DNA of 44,368 nt from contig CANQZA010000009.1 in the NCBI GenBank assembly GCA_947628175.1, positions 1-44,368 of the forward strand, read 5' to 3'. The translations under genes and the position numbers were made by a program. Positions 2,186 through 9,609 of the stretch are shown in pieces. The stretch is from an uncultured Clostridia bacterium. Its GTDB lineage: Bacteria; Bacillota; Clostridia; Oscillospirales; Acutalibacteraceae. Position 1 is the stretch's first letter. The number at the start of each line of letters is the position of its first letter. The notes beneath the pieces were generated by a model. That model had not been told where the DNA came from. It worked only from the letters and a program-made list of their open reading frames with translations, and did not search any database.

Positions 2186-2953
2186 ATGATGGACGGTTAT
2201 TACATAGACAATGTTCAAATAAACAAAAAATATCTTGACGAGGTAAAAGATTCCTATTTAATGGATGTGCCTTCTGTCAGATTTCTGCTTGATTCAAACG
2301 AGTTGAAATTCAATAACAGCGTGACATTTATAATCGGAGAAAACGGTACCGGTAAATCCACACTGCTTGAGGCAATAGCGATTGCATACGGCTTTAACCC
2401 TGAAGGCGGAACAATAAATATGTCCTTTTCCACCCATAATTCACACTCTGATTTATACAAATGCCTTATGGTAGGCAAATCAAAAAAAGCAAGTGACGGC
2501 TTTTTCCTCAGGGCGGAGGGATTTTATAATGTTGCCAGCAATATAGACAAGCTTGACAGCGAGGATATACCGTTTGCTCCGCCGTTAAAATTAAGCTACG
2601 GAGGCAAATCACTGCACGAACAGTCACACGGTGAGAGTTTTCTTGCAACCGTTCAAAACAGATTTTCCCCAAACGGTCTGTACATTCTTGACGAGCCTGA
2701 GGCGGCGCTTTCTCCCATGAAGCTTTTAACTCTTCTTGTACAAATCAGAAATCTGGCGAACCAGAACGCTCAGTTTATCATTTCAACCCATTCGCCCATT
2801 TTAATGGCCTATCCCAATGCTAAAATATATGAAATCAATCAAGACGGAATCCATACCGCCCATTACAAAGAAACACAGCATTATCAGGTTACAAAATCCT
2901 TTCTGGATAATCCCGAAAGGACATTCAGATATCTTTTTGAAGATGAATCCTAA
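2186..2953 (+). CDS. AAA family ATPase, ABC-type head domain
   Basis: This 255-aa stand-alone ATPase has Walker A GENGTGKST near residue 52, an ABC-signature-like SHGES near residue 148, Walker B YILDEPEAALS near residue 170, and a switch histidine in ISTHSP near residue 202. This is the layout of AAA_21/AAA_15-type predicted ATPases related to SMC and ABC heads, without membrane segments. Function is unknown; relatives occur alone or beside nucleases in defence modules, but no partner gene is visible here. The start uses ATG at 2186 (or 2189) after AAAGGAG at 2169-2175. It is monocistronic and converges on the minus-strand GNAT gene at 3146, with a long hairpin between them. Confidence 0.85.
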   Translation: MMDGYYIDNVQINKKYLDEVKDSYLMDVPSVRFLLDSNELKFNNSVTFIIGENGTGKSTLLEAIAIAYGFNPEGGTINMSFSTHNSHSDLYKCLMVGKSKKASDGFFLRAEGFYNVASNIDKLDSEDIPFAPPLKLSYGGKSLHEQSHGESFLATVQNRFSPNGLYILDEPEAALSPMKLLTLLVQIRNLANQNAQFIISTHSPILMAYPNAKIYEINQDGIHTAHYKETQHYQVTKSFLDNPERTFRYLFEDES

Positions 2954-2962
2954 AAATAATAA

Positions 2963-3005
2963 AATGCACCATATAGCTTTTAACATAAAAGTGATACGGT
3001 GCATT
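2963..3005. terminator. Bidirectional intrinsic terminator between convergent genes
   Basis: AATGCACC (2963-2970) pairs with GGTGCATT (2998-3005), and an inner CTTTT/AAAAG stem extends the hairpin. The minus strand leaves the stem into a T-rich tail (TTTTATTATTTTTA). The plus-strand tail is weaker. It sits between the convergent ATPase and GNAT genes. Confidence 0.7.
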
Positions 3006-3145
3006 GATTTTACAGGCATTTTGGATACAGGTTATATTCATGGCAACAGCCTTTGTCTTTTTCCTGTTTTCCCAAAGCATATTATCGCCATTTTTGTATT
3101 GAAACAGTCTTTTTTAAGGATGCAATTTCTTTTCATTGCGTTAAA

Positions 3146-3781
3146 TCATTCATGGTCATCTCCTGTAATTTCGGCTTCGGATACATATTCAAAATCATGT
3201 AACCGTTTGTGGTCAGTAAGCGTTTTGATAATACACCAGCCGTTTCGGCTGGTGATTGCATTTTCGGGCACAGGTAAAAAGCCTAAATCCAGATATAGTT
3301 TAACCGCGAGCCATGTTGTTGTTTGCGTAGGAATTTTTGCGTGTGTATATCCTAATGATTTCATTACATTTAAAGTATGGGAAATAAGAGGTTTGGACAG
3401 TCCTATCCCCTGATATTCTCTTTTAACGCAAACCCAATGCAACCAGCCTGAACCTGATTTGTCTTTACCGTTACTATCATAAAAAGCCGTTGCGGTGGCA
3501 ACTTTTTCGCCTGCGTTATTGACAACAAAAACCATTCTGTTGAGCAATTCGTCCTCTTTGTCGTAATAATATCTGTTCCAAGCATTTAAACCCTCTTCGT
3601 AGGAGGAAAATTCTTTTGCACTTTTTTCAAGTTCAATCCAGACATCTCTGTCACCGACTTTGTAAAATTCAAAATGGAATCCGTCAGGCAAAGCATACTC
3701 TTTTATAAAATCAAGTTCTCTTTCCAGCAATAATTCATAATATTTAATTCTTGCGTCATGATTATCAAACATTATAGTCAT
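3146..3781 (-). CDS. GNAT family N-acetyltransferase
   Basis: This 211-aa protein has a GNAT acetyl-CoA-binding segment, WVCVKREYQGIGLSKPLI, near residues 117-134, preceded by a strand with TATAFYD and followed by a C-terminal half with TTTWLAVKLYLDLGF. The acceptor is unknown. Its start overlaps the end of the upstream kinase-like gene by 17 bases, so the two are co-transcribed and translationally coupled. Initiation at the fourth codon (ATG at 3772) is also possible. It is not closely similar to the GNAT gene at 1360-1962. Confidence 0.8.
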   Translation of the reverse strand: MTIMFDNHDARIKYYELLLERELDFIKEYALPDGFHFEFYKVGDRDVWIELEKSAKEFSSYEEGLNAWNRYYYDKEDELLNRMVFVVNNAGEKVATATAFYDSNGKDKSGSGWLHWVCVKREYQGIGLSKPLISHTLNVMKSLGYTHAKIPTQTTTWLAVKLYLDLGFLPVPENAITSRNGWCIIKTLTDHKRLHDFEYVSEAEITGDDHE

Positions 3782-4521: not shown

Positions 4522-4550
4522 TAGACAATTTATTTTAGCTATGGTATAAT
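4522..4550 (+). promoter_or_regulatory. Promoter of the ribosome-GTPase/NYN fusion gene
   Basis: TAGACA (4522-4527), a 17-base spacer ending in TGG, and TATAAT (4545-4550) form a strong extended -10 promoter. Transcription should start near 4557, leaving a leader under 30 bases. There is no room for the attenuating leader peptide found upstream of classical tet(M). Confidence 0.7.
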
Positions 4551-4583: not shown

Positions 4584-7169
4584 ATGAAAAAAATTGTTAT
4601 CGGAATTCTGGCGCATGTCGATTCAGGCAAGACCACTCTTTCGGAGGCTCTTCTGTATCAATCCGGCAATATAAACAAACTCGGTCGGGTTGATCACAGG
4701 AATTCATTTTTAGATACATTTTCTCTTGAACGCGACCGCGGAATAACAATTTTTTCAAAACAGGCAATCTTAAAATATAAGGATACGGAATTCACTTTGC
4801 TTGACACACCCGGTCATGTGGATTTTTCGGCAGAAACAGAAAGAACGCTTCAGGTTCTTGACTATGCTGTTTTAGTCATAAGCGCAACAGACGGTATTCA
4901 AAGTCACACCCGCACTTTATGGAAGTTGCTTTCAAAATACAGTGTACCCTGCTTTATTTTTGTAAACAAAATGGATTTAGACGGTGCCGATAAAGAGTCT
5001 GTATTAACACAACTCAAATCAAACTTCAGCGACGGCTGTGTTGATTTTGACTGCACGGACACATCAGATTTTTACGAAAGTATTGCACTTTGCGACGAGA
5101 GTCTTTTGAATCAATATTATGAAAAGGAAGAACTGAAAAAAGAGGATATTATCGCCTGCATTAAAGACAGAAAAATTTTTCCCTGTCTGTTTGGCTCAGC
5201 ACTGAAGTTATCAGGTGTAAATGAATTTCTCAACTGTCTGCACAGCTACACACAAATGCCCGATTACGGCAGAGAGTTTGCGGGGAAGGTATACAAAATT
5301 TCAGAAGACAAGGGACAGCGCCTTACCTTTTTAAAAGTTACAGGCGGAAGTATTAAAGTCAAAGAAATACTCCGGGCAAACAAAAATCAAAATTCGGAAA
5401 AAATAAATCAGATAAGGATATACTCCGGCGACAGATTTCGTTGCGTTGACGAGGCATCCGCAGGCACGGTATGCGCTGTAACAGGCATCACCTTTACCCG
5501 TCCGGGAGACGGTCTCGGAACGGAAAAAAGCACAGGACTGCCTGTACTGGAACCTGTTCTTACTTACAGATTAATACTGCCTCAAAGCGTTGATGCTCAC
5601 ACTGCGCTTAAAAAAATGAGAATTCTTGAGAGTGAGGACCCGCAGCTTAAAGTTGTGTGGAACGAACGGCTGAAAGAAATACAGGTTCAGCTTATGGGCG
5701 ATATCCAGCTTGAAATTCTTCAATCCATTTTTAAAGAGCGTTTTGGTATCAGCATATCCTTTTCAAAAGGTAATATAATATATAAGGAAACGATAGCAGA
5801 CACTGTTGAGGGTGTCGGTCATTTTGAGCCGCTTCGTCATTACGCGGAGGTTCATTTGCTGATGAAGCCGGGAAAAAGGGACAGCGGAATTCTGTTTAAT
5901 ACGCAATGTTCTGAGGATTTGCTTGACAAAAACTGGCAGAGACTCATATTAACTCACCTGTATGAAAAAACGCACATAGGTATCTTGACAGGCTCACCTT
6001 TAACGGATATGGAAATCACACTCGTCTCGGGAAAATCGCATCCAAAGCATACCGAAGGCGGAGATTTCAGACAGGCAACCTACAGAGCTGTAAGGCAGGG
6101 ACTGCGCTCGGCAGAGTGCATACTGCTTGAACCCGTTTATGAATTTACTTTAGAGGTTCCCAATGAAAATGTCGGCAGGGCAATGTCTGATATACAACGA
6201 ATGTCGGGCAGTTTTCATCCGCCTGAAACGGTCGGTGATTGTTCGGTCATCAGCGGTACCGCACCTGTTTCGGAAATGTATGATTATTCCAAAGATGTTA
6301 TGCAGTATACACACGGAAACGGCAAGCTTATGTGCACATTAAAAGGATACGAGTCATGCCATAACGCCGAGGAGGTTATTGCAGACATCGGGTACGACTG
6401 TGACGCGGATATTGATAATCCCTGCGACTCTGTATTTTGTTCACACGGCGCAGGATATACTGTAAAGTGGAATGAAGTAAAAAGCCATATGCATCTGCCG
6501 AGTGCACTATCTGTTCCCAAAAAGGAATATACACACAGCAGTATCCAAAAAACAGTTTCCAATTACAAAAATAAAAACAATCTTTTTGCTCTCGACAAAG
6601 AGCTTATGCAGATTTTTGAACAGACCTATGGCCCAATAAAAAGCAGAAATAACAATATAAATCAGAATCATTTTACTTTTACACAAAATACGGAAAATAA
6701 AAAATACAAGGGCGTGCGACCGTCAAGATATGAAGGCGGGGAATATCTTCTGGTTGACGGATATAATGTAATTTTTTCATGGGACAAGCTAAGGCAACTC
6801 GCACAAAACAATATTGACGGTGCAAGAAATACACTGGTTAATATTTTATGTAATTATCAGGGATACAAAAAATGTGAAGTCATTCTTGTATTTGATGCGT
6901 ATAAAGTGAAGGGCAGCACCATAGAGGTAGAAAAGGTGAACAACATTCATATTGTTTACACAAAAGAGGCTGAAACCGCCGATATGTATATTGAAAAAGT
7001 GTCCCACAGGCTGGCGAAAAATCATAAGGTAAGAGTGGTCACATCTGACGCACTTGAACAGCTTATAATATTGGGAAACGGTGCGCTGCGCGTATCATCA
7101 AAAGAATTTCTTTACGAGGTACAGCAGGCTGAAAAAGAAATAAAAGACATTATTTCTAAAATATTTTAA
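4584..7169 (+). CDS. Tet(M)/EF-G-like ribosome-binding GTPase fused to a C-terminal Rae1/YacP-like NYN nuclease domain
   Basis: The 861-aa product starts with a translation-factor GTPase: G1 AHVDSGKT (10-17), G2 RGIT (52-55), G3 DTPGHVDF (74-81), G4 NKMD (128-131), G5 GSAL (204-207). EF-G-like domains II-V follow to about residue 650, with the Tet(M)-family ending IGYDCDADIDNP...CSHGAGYTVKW. After a polar linker (about 655-715) comes an NYN/PIN-like domain (718-861): LLVDGYNVIF with D725, LVFDAY with D771, ETADMYIEK with D800 and VVTSDALEQ with D822. This resembles Bacillus subtilis Rae1 (YacP), an endoribonuclease that cleaves mRNA in the ribosomal A site. The inferred job is GTPase-directed binding of the ribosome with cleavage of its mRNA, in rescue or quality control; tetracycline protection is an alternative. 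The gene is monocistronic. Confidence 0.85.
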   Translation: MKKIVIGILAHVDSGKTTLSEALLYQSGNINKLGRVDHRNSFLDTFSLERDRGITIFSKQAILKYKDTEFTLLDTPGHVDFSAETERTLQVLDYAVLVISATDGIQSHTRTLWKLLSKYSVPCFIFVNKMDLDGADKESVLTQLKSNFSDGCVDFDCTDTSDFYESIALCDESLLNQYYEKEELKKEDIIACIKDRKIFPCLFGSALKLSGVNEFLNCLHSYTQMPDYGREFAGKVYKISEDKGQRLTFLKVTGGSIKVKEILRANKNQNSEKINQIRIYSGDRFRCVDEASAGTVCAVTGITFTRPGDGLGTEKSTGLPVLEPVLTYRLILPQSVDAHTALKKMRILESEDPQLKVVWNERLKEIQVQLMGDIQLEILQSIFKERFGISISFSKGNIIYKETIADTVEGVGHFEPLRHYAEVHLLMKPGKRDSGILFNTQCSEDLLDKNWQRLILTHLYEKTHIGILTGSPLTDMEITLVSGKSHPKHTEGGDFRQATYRAVRQGLRSAECILLEPVYEFTLEVPNENVGRAMSDIQRMSGSFHPPETVGDCSVISGTAPVSEMYDYSKDVMQYTHGNGKLMCTLKGYESCHNAEEVIADIGYDCDADIDNPCDSVFCSHGAGYTVKWNEVKSHMHLPSALSVPKKEYTHSSIQKTVSNYKNKNNLFALDKELMQIFEQTYGPIKSRNNNINQNHFTFTQNTENKKYKGVRPSRYEGGEYLLVDGYNVIFSWDKLRQLAQNNIDGARNTLVNILCNYQGYKKCEVILVFDAYKVKGSTIEVEKVNNIHIVYTKEAETADMYIEKVSHRLAKNHKVRVVTSDALEQLIILGNGALRVSSKEFLYEVQQAEKEIKDIISKIF

Positions 7170-7176
7170 TCATAAA

Positions 7177-7214
7177 AGAGTCGGGGTGCGGACGAAAATC
7201 CGAACTCCGACTCT
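7177..7214 (+). terminator. Terminator after the GTPase/NYN fusion gene
   Basis: AGAGTCGGGGTGCGGA (7177-7192) pairs with TCCGAACTCCGACTCT (7199-7214) with one mismatch and one wobble, 7 bases after the stop. The T-tract that follows is weak (AAGTATTTT). Confidence 0.7.
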
Positions 7215-7289
7215 AAGTATTTTCAAACAGGTGATAAATTCCTCAACTGTTTGAAAGATTCATAGATTACTGCAAAACGAATGAATTAT

Positions 7290-7320
7290 AAATGCGTCCG
7301 GCGCAATACCGAACGCATTT
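7290..7320. terminator. Hairpin downstream of trpS
   Basis: AAATGCGTCCGG pairs with CCGAACGCATTT (one mismatch) around a 7-base loop. It lies between the plus-strand fusion gene and the end of minus-strand trpS. Neither side has a strong T-run, so its efficiency is uncertain. Confidence 0.5.
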
Positions 7321-7379
7321 CTTGCATGTTAATATTTTTTTGGCTGATATTTGAGATTCATTTCATGAAACGGTGATAT

Positions 7380-8393
7380 TTACTTGGCAAGAAAGCCTAT
7401 TTTTTTCATTGCCTTATCAAGCGTTCTCTGTGCCATTCTGTCAGCTAAATCCGCGCCCTTTGTCCACTGTTGCTGAAGATATGCTTTATCATTCATATAC
7501 GCATGATATCTTTTCTGAACAGGCTCAAGTTCAGCAACAACAGCCTCACCGACTGCCTTTTTAAAATCGCCGTAACCTCTTCCTGCGAATTCAGATTCAA
7601 TCGTTTCAAAGCTTTTGCCCGTAACAGCAGAATAAATGGTCATCAGATTATTGATTCCCTCCTTGCCCGGTGCATAATGAACACTCATTTCGCTGTCAGT
7701 AACGGCAGACTTAAATTTATTCATAATAACGCTCGGTTCATCGGTAAGATATACCGTACCTTTAGGATTGGGATCGGACTTACTCATTTTTTTATCCGGA
7801 TCCGCAAGGCTCATCACTCTGGCTCCTGCCTTGGGGATATATGCATCGGGAACCGTAAACACATTTGGATAAATTCCGTTAAATCGCTGTGCAATATCTC
7901 TTGCAATTTCAAGATGCTGTTTCTGGTCAGCGCCGACAGGCACAACATCAGCCTGGTAAAGCAGAATATCCGCCGCCATAAGACACGGATATGTAAACAG
8001 TCCTGCATTTACATTATCACTGTGTTGCTGTGATTTATCCTTAAACTGCGTCATTCTGTTAAGCTCACCGAACATTGTATAGCAGCCAAGAATCCAGCCG
8101 AGCTGAGAATGAGCAGGAACATGTGACTGAATAAAGAGTATGCTTTTATCGGGATCAATGCCTATTGCAAGCAGGTAAGCATAAAGTTGCATTGTCAGCT
8201 GTCTCAGCTTTTTAGGCTCCTGCCTGACAGTGATGGAATGTAAATCGGCAATCCCGAAAATTGTATCAAAATCATTCTGAAATTGGGGCCATCCCTTCAT
8301 CGCTCCGAGATAGTTGCCCAAGGTGGGAACAGATGTGGGCTGAATGAAGGAAAGACTCCTTTTTCGCTTTTGATTTTTTATTTCTTCAGGCAT
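7380..8393 (-). CDS. trpS: Tryptophan--tRNA ligase
   Basis: This class Ic cytosolic synthetase charges tRNA-Trp with tryptophan using ATP. The 337-aa length is normal. The HIGH-like motif is PTLGNYLGA (23-31) and the KMSKS loop is KKMSKS (201-206). GADQKQHLEIARDIA (154-168) is the conserved tryptophan/ATP pocket region. It follows the aminotransferase gene by 25 bases on the minus strand and is probably co-transcribed. No T-box leader is visible directly upstream, so any tryptophan control would have to act at the operon head. Confidence 0.95.
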   Translation of the reverse strand: MPEEIKNQKRKRSLSFIQPTSVPTLGNYLGAMKGWPQFQNDFDTIFGIADLHSITVRQEPKKLRQLTMQLYAYLLAIGIDPDKSILFIQSHVPAHSQLGWILGCYTMFGELNRMTQFKDKSQQHSDNVNAGLFTYPCLMAADILLYQADVVPVGADQKQHLEIARDIAQRFNGIYPNVFTVPDAYIPKAGARVMSLADPDKKMSKSDPNPKGTVYLTDEPSVIMNKFKSAVTDSEMSVHYAPGKEGINNLMTIYSAVTGKSFETIESEFAGRGYGDFKKAVGEAVVAELEPVQKRYHAYMNDKAYLQQQWTKGADLADRMAQRTLDKAMKKIGFLAK

Positions 8394-8418
8394 ATAGTAT
8401 CATCTCCATTGAATATCA

Positions 8419-9609
8419 TTATTTTCCGTATTGTGCCGCAACCTCGCCGAGCGCCTTAATTCCGTTTACAATTCCTTCATCTGACGGTGTAGAGAAATTC
8501 AGGCGGATATACTGAGTTGAGTCATTATCATTCATAAGAAATGCGTTGCCCGGCACAACGGCAACTTTTTTTTCAACTGCCTTTTGAACGAACGCAAGCA
8601 TATCAACAGAATCGGGAAGCCGACACCATATAAAAAGTCCGCCCTCGGGTCTTACATATTCAACAAAATCTCCAAGCTCCCTATCAATACATTTGCACAT
8701 CAAATCAAGTTTTTTGCGGTAGATACCCTGTATTTTTTTAATATGGGCATCAACATCATAATGTTTAAACCACTCGTCAACGATCATCTGATTCAGGCAG
8801 GAGGTATGAACATCGGTTGCCTGTTTTCCCACAGTCATTTTTGCAAGCAGTTCCTGCGGGGCAATGCAGTATGCGACACGCAATCCGGGTGACAGAATTT
8901 TTGAAAACGAACCTGCATATATAACAATACCATCGTCATCCATTGATTTGATTGTAGGAAGCGCGTCACCTTCCACACGCAAATCGCCGTAAGGATTATC
9001 CTCAAGAATAATTACGCCGTACTGCTTTGCAAGGGAGTAAAGACGCTCTCTTTTTGTCAGAGACATTGTAGCCCCCGACGGGTTCTGAAAATTGGGAATT
9101 GTATAAATAAACTTAGCGTTTGGCGTTGTTTTAAGAACTTCCTCCAGCACTTCAACATTCATTCCGTCCGCTTCGACAGGAACTCCTTTGAGTCTGCAAC
9201 CATATGAACGAAAACAGTTAAGAGAACCTATGAAAGACGGCTCCTCACAGATAACAACATCACCCTCGTTGCACAGCACCTTTGTTGTAAGATCCATAAC
9301 CTGCGTTGCGCCGGATACGATTATGCAGTTATCAAAATCCCTGCCTATATTCTCATGCTTTTTAATCCACGAGATAATGGTTTCACGAAGAGACTGATAG
9401 CCCTCAGACACTCCGTATTGCAGCGCGTCAATCGGTCTTTTTTCAAGAATATCCGCCGCAATGACACGCACCTCGTCAACAGGAAATGCATCAGGAGCAG
9501 GATTGCCTGCTGCCAAAGGAATTATTGACGGGTCAGATGTTGCTTTAAGTATCTCTCTAATAGCGCTCGGCTGAAGAGACGAGATTTTGTTTGAAAATGT
9601 GTATTTCAT
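8419..9609 (-). CDS. PLP-dependent class I/II aminotransferase, LysN/MocR-like subgroup
   Basis: This 396-aa fold-type I aminotransferase has the cofactor lysine in SFSKILSPGLRVAY (K237), the NPSG motif at 176-179, an LEDNPYGDL aspartate (about D204) for the pyridine nitrogen, and a C-terminal YIRLNFSTPSDEGI with the substrate-carboxylate arginine. The subgroup includes 2-aminoadipate, valine-pyruvate and aromatic aminotransferases; the substrate cannot be fixed from sequence alone. The winged-helix domain of true MocR regulators is absent. Pairing with trpS makes an aromatic or branched-chain substrate conceivable. The start at 9609 has no consensus ribosome binding site. Instead it lies 4 bases after a repeated leader block. 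Confidence 0.85.
   Translation of the reverse strand: MKYTFSNKISSLQPSAIREILKATSDPSIIPLAAGNPAPDAFPVDEVRVIAADILEKRPIDALQYGVSEGYQSLRETIISWIKKHENIGRDFDNCIIVSGATQVMDLTTKVLCNEGDVVICEEPSFIGSLNCFRSYGCRLKGVPVEADGMNVEVLEEVLKTTPNAKFIYTIPNFQNPSGATMSLTKRERLYSLAKQYGVIILEDNPYGDLRVEGDALPTIKSMDDDGIVIYAGSFSKILSPGLRVAYCIAPQELLAKMTVGKQATDVHTSCLNQMIVDEWFKHYDVDAHIKKIQGIYRKKLDLMCKCIDRELGDFVEYVRPEGGLFIWCRLPDSVDMLAFVQKAVEKKVAVVPGNAFLMNDNDSTQYIRLNFSTPSDEGIVNGIKALGEVAAQYGK

Follow-up and report, generated by a model that had tools for sequence, protein, structure and literature searches.

Introduction

Rae1 (YacP) of Bacillus subtilis (PF05991; 5MQ8, 5MQ9) is described in two reports as a translation-dependent mRNA endonuclease whose gene is co-transcribed with yacO (PMC10100781, PMC6613710), and another names S1025 and yrzI as candidate targets (PMC10632193). 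An older proposal, cited in Atkinson 2015 (PMC4342817), has NYN_YacP proteins acting in rRNA and tRNA maturation. That paper reports Tet-NYN fusions of ten Clostridiales species, puts them in the Tet subfamily and suggests RNase-based resistance, with no experiment given there. Those proteins and the one analysed here have the same architecture; they were classed there as Tet and are set here apart from the protection proteins. The fusion architecture is already known, and the protein studied here is one more member. Added here, from sequence comparison, are the separation of the GTPase from the protection proteins and the mutual exclusion of fused and free YacP. Literature searches of open-licence papers found no experimental work on the fusion.

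The window, i.e., the whole 44,368-nucleotide stretch that was analysed (contig CANQZA010000009.1 of assembly GCA_947628175.1, an uncultured Clostridia bacterium), carries the fusion gene at 4584..7169 on the forward strand, the strand of all gene features given below for this locus. Unlike Rae1 of B. subtilis, the fused nuclease is tied to a GTPase and is encoded outside the rlmB-yacP-sigH locus, and in the window it is without the C-terminal tail usual in free YacP.

A translation GTPase and a Rae1-type nuclease in one reading frame

The gene encodes 861 aa comprising a translation GTPase and a Rae1/YacP-type NYN nuclease, a combination that the earlier note on this DNA had reported and that both the domain matches and the single frame bear out. 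The G domain (residues 4-224; 4593..5255) has complete G motifs and is followed by domain II (residues 232-311; 5277..5516; EF-G_D2, 7e-8), domain III (residues 324-393; 5553..5762; EFG_III, 26.7 bits against a cut-off of 27), domain IV (residues 397-510; 5772..6113), which contains GHFEPLRHYAEVH, and domain V (residues 514-594; 6123..6365; EFG_C, 2e-18). The tip of domain IV reads HxKHTxGGDFR (residues 486-496; 6039..6071), where tetracycline-protection proteins have YSPVSTPADFR. The GTP-binding motifs and domains II-V that define the EF-G/EF2 family are thus present, domain III lying marginally below its cut-off, and the Foldseek matches of the GTPase were EF-G or EF-2 chains among the matches listed. 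Domain V leads into a C-terminal extension (residues 595-640; 6366..6503; SVFCxxGxG..V.W.EV...MH) that is predicted to be folded, and then into a linker (residues 641-719; 6504..6740) of mostly low prediction confidence, with a predicted helix at residues 668-682 (6585-6629; motif DKELMQIFEQTY) inside the disordered stretch. The NYN_YacP/Rae1 nuclease domain (residues 722-857; 6747..7154) carries D725, N728, D771, D800 and D822. The full-length model reached a pTM of 0.62, so that the placing of the NYN domain relative to the GTPase in it means little. Two neighbouring genes or a sequencing join were considered as the source of the composite and rejected on 118 single-frame proteins, the window protein included.

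The GTPase half forms a family apart from tetracycline-protection proteins

The best NCBIfam model for the GTPase half was tet_protect, with 431 bits against a cut-off of 775; the EF-G model gave 300 bits against 659. Two protection proteins of relatives, L062 and L063, passed the tet_protect cut-off with 855 and 832 bits. Domain IV was compared between 42 fusions, found without motif patterns, and L062, L063 and the EF-G that the genome encodes elsewhere (L064). The 42 fusions have GHFEPLRHYAEVHL and HxKHTxGGDFR in common, whereas L062 and L063 have YSPVSTPADFR at the tip, and a tip of the YSPVST type is absent from the window protein. H486 aligns with the tip histidine of EF-G, where protection proteins have tyrosine; this histidine of EF-G matters for translocation. 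The fusion thus shares all five domains and the tip histidine with EF-G but only about 24-28% identity outside the G domain, and it shares the domain order of Tet(M)/Tet(O), being about 30% identical to the protection proteins that relatives encode, but differs from them in the domain IV tip, in the C-terminal extension and in a score below the cut-off. Across the 118 fused rows, 74 of which were collected by two domain IV patterns, K16 of the P-loop is found in 117 and N128 of NKxD in 116 (one row is short at its start). C592 at the end of domain V and S616 and G622 of the extension are found in all 118, and C619, W629 and H637 in 115-118.

The same domain IV motifs and extension occur in 18 'translation factor GTPase' sister proteins of 618-724 aa, which end at the extension without linker or nuclease. 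Such NYN-less sisters occur in Paenibacillus and Ligilactobacillus salivarius too, with looser domain IV tips. Searches of open-licence papers found no function for them, and their existence points to a separate role for the GTPase itself. The score far below the cut-off, together with a different conserved tip that is common to the NYN-less sisters, argues that the fusion GTPase is probably not a tetracycline-protection protein; judged by its sequence, it is its own family. TetB(P), about 650 aa long and so of similar size, was considered as a NYN-less relative and rejected at 31% identity over 92%. One sister, at 4968-6902 of L187 (L. salivarius UCC118 pMP118), is named a tetracycline resistance protein; an rpsN (S14) gene and a putative gene for metal homeostasis lie in divergent orientation to it. 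The NYN-less sisters stop before the linker helix motif DKELMQIFEQTY.

It is very unlikely, in our judgement, that the fusion is a Tet-type ribosomal-protection protein whose added RNase provides a new way of resistance, as suggested in Atkinson 2015, where such proteins are placed in the Tet subfamily (PMC4342817). That tet_protect is the best NCBIfam model speaks for this idea, but its cut-off is far from reached and the tip is unlike that of L062 and L063, so that 'Tet(M)-like', the wording of the earlier note, is not supported as a functional label. Protection proteins over the cut-off were found in 23 of 293 genomes, none of them in a fused-length frame, and were about equally frequent with the fusion (7/104) and without it (16/189); five of the 23 have one same score across four families, as if mobile. 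The window neighbours are of the housekeeping kind (rpoA, secY and ribosomal proteins).

The space before the gene bears on the same question. The best promoter match (4522..4550; TAGACA, a 17-base spacer and TATAAT, with TG before the -10) has 11 of 12 consensus positions and ranks first among 12 sites of the region, for which shuffled sequences gave 8.1 expected. It ends 33 bases 5' of the fusion ATG and would imply a leader of about 25 bases. A tet(M)-type leader is longer than this space. A promoter so close to the ATG would leave no room for such a leader and little for an attenuator, which, together with the even distribution of protection proteins, counts against the antibiotic response that the earlier note had considered possible. 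A drug-resistance role is not supported.

The fusion belongs to a widespread clostridial GTPase family. Among the matches listed, plasmid records often give its NYN-less members a tetracycline resistance name. By its sequence the family is probably not one of tetracycline resistance, which matters for resistome counts.

The nuclease half is a Rae1 on a long linker, often without its tail

The NYN_YacP domain of the window protein scores 169 bits against a curated cut-off of 24.6, in agreement with the NYN similarity expected of residues 718-861. The four aspartates that had been read as a Rae1 pattern (D725, D771, D800 and D822) are kept, together with N728, in 118/118 fused and 24/24 free proteins. 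We take these conserved acidic residues to be the catalytic residues of Rae1. The predicted structure of this half has the Rae1 fold, and by sequence and model together the NYN half is Rae1.

The identity of the nuclease bears on what it might cut. A factor for ribosome rescue or A-site clearing that uses its nuclease on rRNA or tRNA rather than on mRNA appears improbable. It would fit the older proposal of rRNA and tRNA maturation mentioned in Atkinson 2015 (PMC4342817), and a linker of such length could reach several targets; however, the nearest characterised relative, Rae1, is described as a translation-dependent mRNA endonuclease (PMC10100781, PMC6613710), and the conserved residues of the NYN half are those of Rae1.

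The linker could be delimited in 103 of 118 fusions, where it measures 67-155 residues with a median of 79; the others are two proteins lacking DGYN and 13 in which the end of the extension was not recognised. In 71 of these 103 the linker carries a helix motif of the DKELxxIFExTY kind, and it might dock on the ribosome or on the NYN domain. Between the window protein and its relative L003, dN was 0.111 for the GTPase, 0.246 for the linker and 0.101 for the NYN domain, and in six other relatives it was 0.12-0.24, 0.21-0.81 and 0.12-0.18, respectively, the linker again being the fastest; synonymous sites were near or at saturation in these comparisons. Purifying selection on both halves is evident from the sequences.

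The two forms differ at the C-terminus. The residues after the TSD motif number 64-68 in all 24 free YacPs measured, including the free NYN protein L040, and range from 35 to 116 in the fusions, with fewer than 50 in 57/118 and at least 55 in 55/118. The window protein has 39, and its NYN domain stops roughly 25 residues short of the end of free YacP. Correspondingly, 87 of 88 free YacPs match the profile to position 159 or beyond, the free protein of G229 to 146 only. The tail is nearly fixed in free YacP and expendable in many fusions. Its loss, common in fused and near-absent in free nucleases, looks as if the GTPase had taken over the task of the tail. One study lists R166P, in the tail of B. 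subtilis Rae1, among suppressors of efp and takes it as loss of function (PMC6613710).

Fused and free YacP exclude one another across genomes

A census was made of 293 genomes of the class, drawn at >=90% completeness, with an NYN_YacP search and a domain IV/extension profile. NYN_YacP was over its cut-off in 191 genomes and in none of the matches of the other 102. The fusion was found in 104 genomes and free YacP in 88 (87 of them free only), and G303 alone has both. One genome with both forms compares with 31 expected if the two were independent (Fisher 9e-20), a descriptive figure since the genomes are related by descent. The earlier note had raised the question of whether fusion-bearing genomes are without a separate yacP, and 103 of the 104 have none over the cut-off; the single NYN_YacP match in the window's own genome is the fusion. 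The 104 comprise 97 fused-length frames, five that are broken or at contig ends, and G175 and G191, whose fusions are truncated at contig ends and have linker and NYN in the same frame. Frame length together with an NYN match somewhere in the genome served to count the fusions, in place of a reading of each one. The frame lengths of all 88 free YacPs were seen and none has a GTPase match joined; of the 28 of these frames for which lengths are given here, 27 have 160-197 aa and one (G305) has 342 aa.

A first count of four genomes with both forms came down to one, as three of the second matches lie at about 21 bits, below the Pfam cut-off, and cover positions 3-49 only. The sole NYN_YacP match of G280 is also below the cut-off. 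Sub-threshold matches of this kind (21 bits, positions 3-49) are seen in frames of about 160 aa at L183, L184 and L185, from three genomes of one genus.

Fused and free states alternate within families f29, f30, f34 and f54, with no genome having both; these, plus f35 by G228, are the only families that hold both states. The mutual exclusion reflects shared descent in part, and the replacement of free YacP by the fused form is nevertheless well supported by the sequence census. Among 12 relatives of the window's genus, the whole fusion is present in 9 and pieces of it in G010 and G012; none was found in G011, a genome of the same genus that is 96% complete. Together with the 102 of 293 genomes that have no YacP domain over the cut-off, this indicates that the function is dispensable.

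NYN-less sister GTPases were found in 20 of the 293 genomes, 13 beside free YacP and 7 without; G191 is left out of this count, and the 7 include G222 with a fragment of 293 aa. An enrichment of free YacP beside them is not clear at 13/20.

No intact yacP at the old place in fused-only genomes where it can be read

Free YacP loci have rlmB at position -1 in 17/20 and sigH at +1 in 19/20. At fused loci rlmB adjoins in 0/114 and the sigma factor of the free-YacP cluster is near in 2/114, and the rlmB-yacP-sigH locus is not the place of the window fusion. Sixteen genomes were searched for rlmB and sigH, 14 of them with the fusion (G303, with both forms, included). The two genes were together in 7/16, with yacP between them in G225 and G303. 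In the fused-only genomes G066, G037, G139 and G310 the matched sigH and rlmB parts lie about 120-220 bases apart, with no yacP by tblastn; G225, with yacP in this place, is of the same genus as G066. In the fused genome G210 about 590 bases separate the sigH and rlmB frames (L206, 907-1497); no intact yacP is present, and a weak 31-residue resemblance to YacP (E 2.5) is possibly a relic of it. An intact yacP at the old place was thus found in 0/5 fused-only genomes where rlmB and sigH adjoin. In the other nine of the 16, the window's included, rlmB and sigH were apart or sigH was not found.

A single origin is the simplest reading for the fused nuclease

In a tree of 87 NYN rows, 63 fused rows and one free row (L040) were split from 23 of the 24 free rows by a branch of 96/97 support; the bootstrap is rough according to the program, and L170 and L171, without the DGYN spelling, were included. 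The simplest reading of this sequence tree is that the fused nuclease arose once. L040 (5787-6308, in G228) is free, groups with the fused rows and lies outside the yacP operon, and a NYN-less GTPase is encoded elsewhere in G228 (L168, 3987-5936). L040 may be a nuclease set free again; fission proper was not retained, as its position there lacks significance: a tree that unites all fused rows to the exclusion of L040 is not rejected (AU p 0.40).

In the GTPase tree the 18 NYN-less proteins and Paenibacillus form one group (support 100), and the L. salivarius NYN-less protein, with a long branch, falls among the fused rows. These do not form a single clade; the tree implies three changes, weakly supported. 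One architecture per GTPase clade was therefore rejected, the L. salivarius placement and a few fused rows outside the main group being against it.

At L098 (Clostridia bacterium UC5.1-1E11) the GTPase with extension (5867-7885) and the NYN domain (7830-8423) are in two overlapping frames, which may be a natural split or a frame error. Frame breaks of the fusion were also seen in L053, L059, L069, L089 and L116.

A proposed order of action at the ribosome

The reading that we favour, and regard as probable, is that the fusion is the Rae1 of its lineage: an mRNA endonuclease acting on the ribosome, with a flexible linker between it and an EF-G-like GTPase of its own, the latter probably not a drug-protection factor. 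Since the fused form seems to have replaced the free enzyme, the GTPase probably helps the nuclease to work at the ribosome. By analogy we infer ribosome binding, GTPase action, mRNA cleavage, the order of these steps and the substrate.

That the joint serves co-expression only, with the NYN domain doing the ordinary Rae1 job alone and the GTPase a separate ribosome job, seems to us rather unlikely. NYN-less sister GTPases live both beside free YacP and without it, and G228 holds its fused-type NYN free and its GTPase separate, as such an arrangement would allow. On the other hand, proteins from 24 family codes have kept the joint, the linker never being shorter than 67 residues in 103/103 measured fusions, and the tail is lost in 57/118 fused and 0/24 free proteins measured, as though the nuclease depended on the GTPase, G229 being the exception.

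If the fusion is indeed the lineage's Rae1, a sequence of events can be proposed. The fused nuclease would have arisen once, making the free yacP dispensable, and yacP would then have been lost from the rlmB-yacP-sigH locus. The GTPase would enter, at the factor site, a ribosome whose A site is paused or empty, and its unusual domain IV tip may read or clear the A site. Upon GTP hydrolysis domain IV would depart, and the tethered NYN domain could reach the vacated A site and cut the mRNA. The A site is presumed to be used by domain IV of EF-G-type factors and by Rae1 alike. They therefore cannot sit there together, and the two-step order is a guess that meets this constraint; a linker of 67-155 residues permits such a sequential handover. 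The nearest alternative to the handover is a mere tether that raises local concentration. The strongest form of the proposal, a GTP-driven two-step surveillance enzyme in which an undescribed class of GTPase, with HxKHTxGGDFR as a domain IV code of its own, inspects or clears the A site of a paused ribosome before the tethered nuclease cuts the mRNA, and which replaced a diffusible Rae1 and made its tail dispensable, is tentative and somewhat doubtful. If true, its logic would make it the bacterial counterpart of no-go decay, a single chain combining the recognition GTPase with the nuclease.

The fusion bears on how Rae1 reaches the A site of chosen ribosomes: its natural substitution for free Rae1 points to a partner that could bring it there, and through the fusion the delivery question becomes a single-protein experiment.

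Genomic setting and spread

The earlier note expected the architecture to recur in Clostridia, and it does: at least 80 named loci come from Ruminococcus, Oscillospiraceae, Lachnospiraceae and other Clostridia, many from gut or rumen according to record titles, with a single fused frame in 74/80 among the matches listed. The anticipated name, in the form 'translation factor GTPase family protein', belongs to a fused-length member of 862 aa. Of 249 genomes drawn from the phylum, 18 had a match, 16 of them with fused-length frames (judged by length only), some outside the class. The fused joint recurs in 24 family codes.

In the window, the neighbours of the fusion encode acetyltransferases, a Trp/Tyr-type tRNA synthetase, an aminotransferase, a glycerophosphotransferase and serine hydroxymethyltransferase, and a region of ribosomal proteins, secY and rpoA lies farther away. 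Pfam matches in the window include rpoA, secY, ribosomal proteins S3 and L2, Spo0A, SpoIVB peptidase, DNA polymerase III and WhiA. A mobile element or phage setting was rejected, as a single PHROG match, to a phosphofructokinase, was obtained from ten ORFs in 15-34 kb. A conserved partner of the fusion was likewise not retained: the largest neighbour cluster, represented by an ABC-F-like ATPase, touches 13/114 loci and, being single-linkage, may mix ABC proteins; it is near 3/18 NYN-less loci. An ABC-F-like ATPase (ABC_tran_Xtn) adjoins the fusion at L093 (8109-9665) and similar loci. In the window itself, an AAA_21-type ATPase frame (2186-2953) overlaps a frame without a Pfam match (2817-3413), and the two are perhaps one broken gene.
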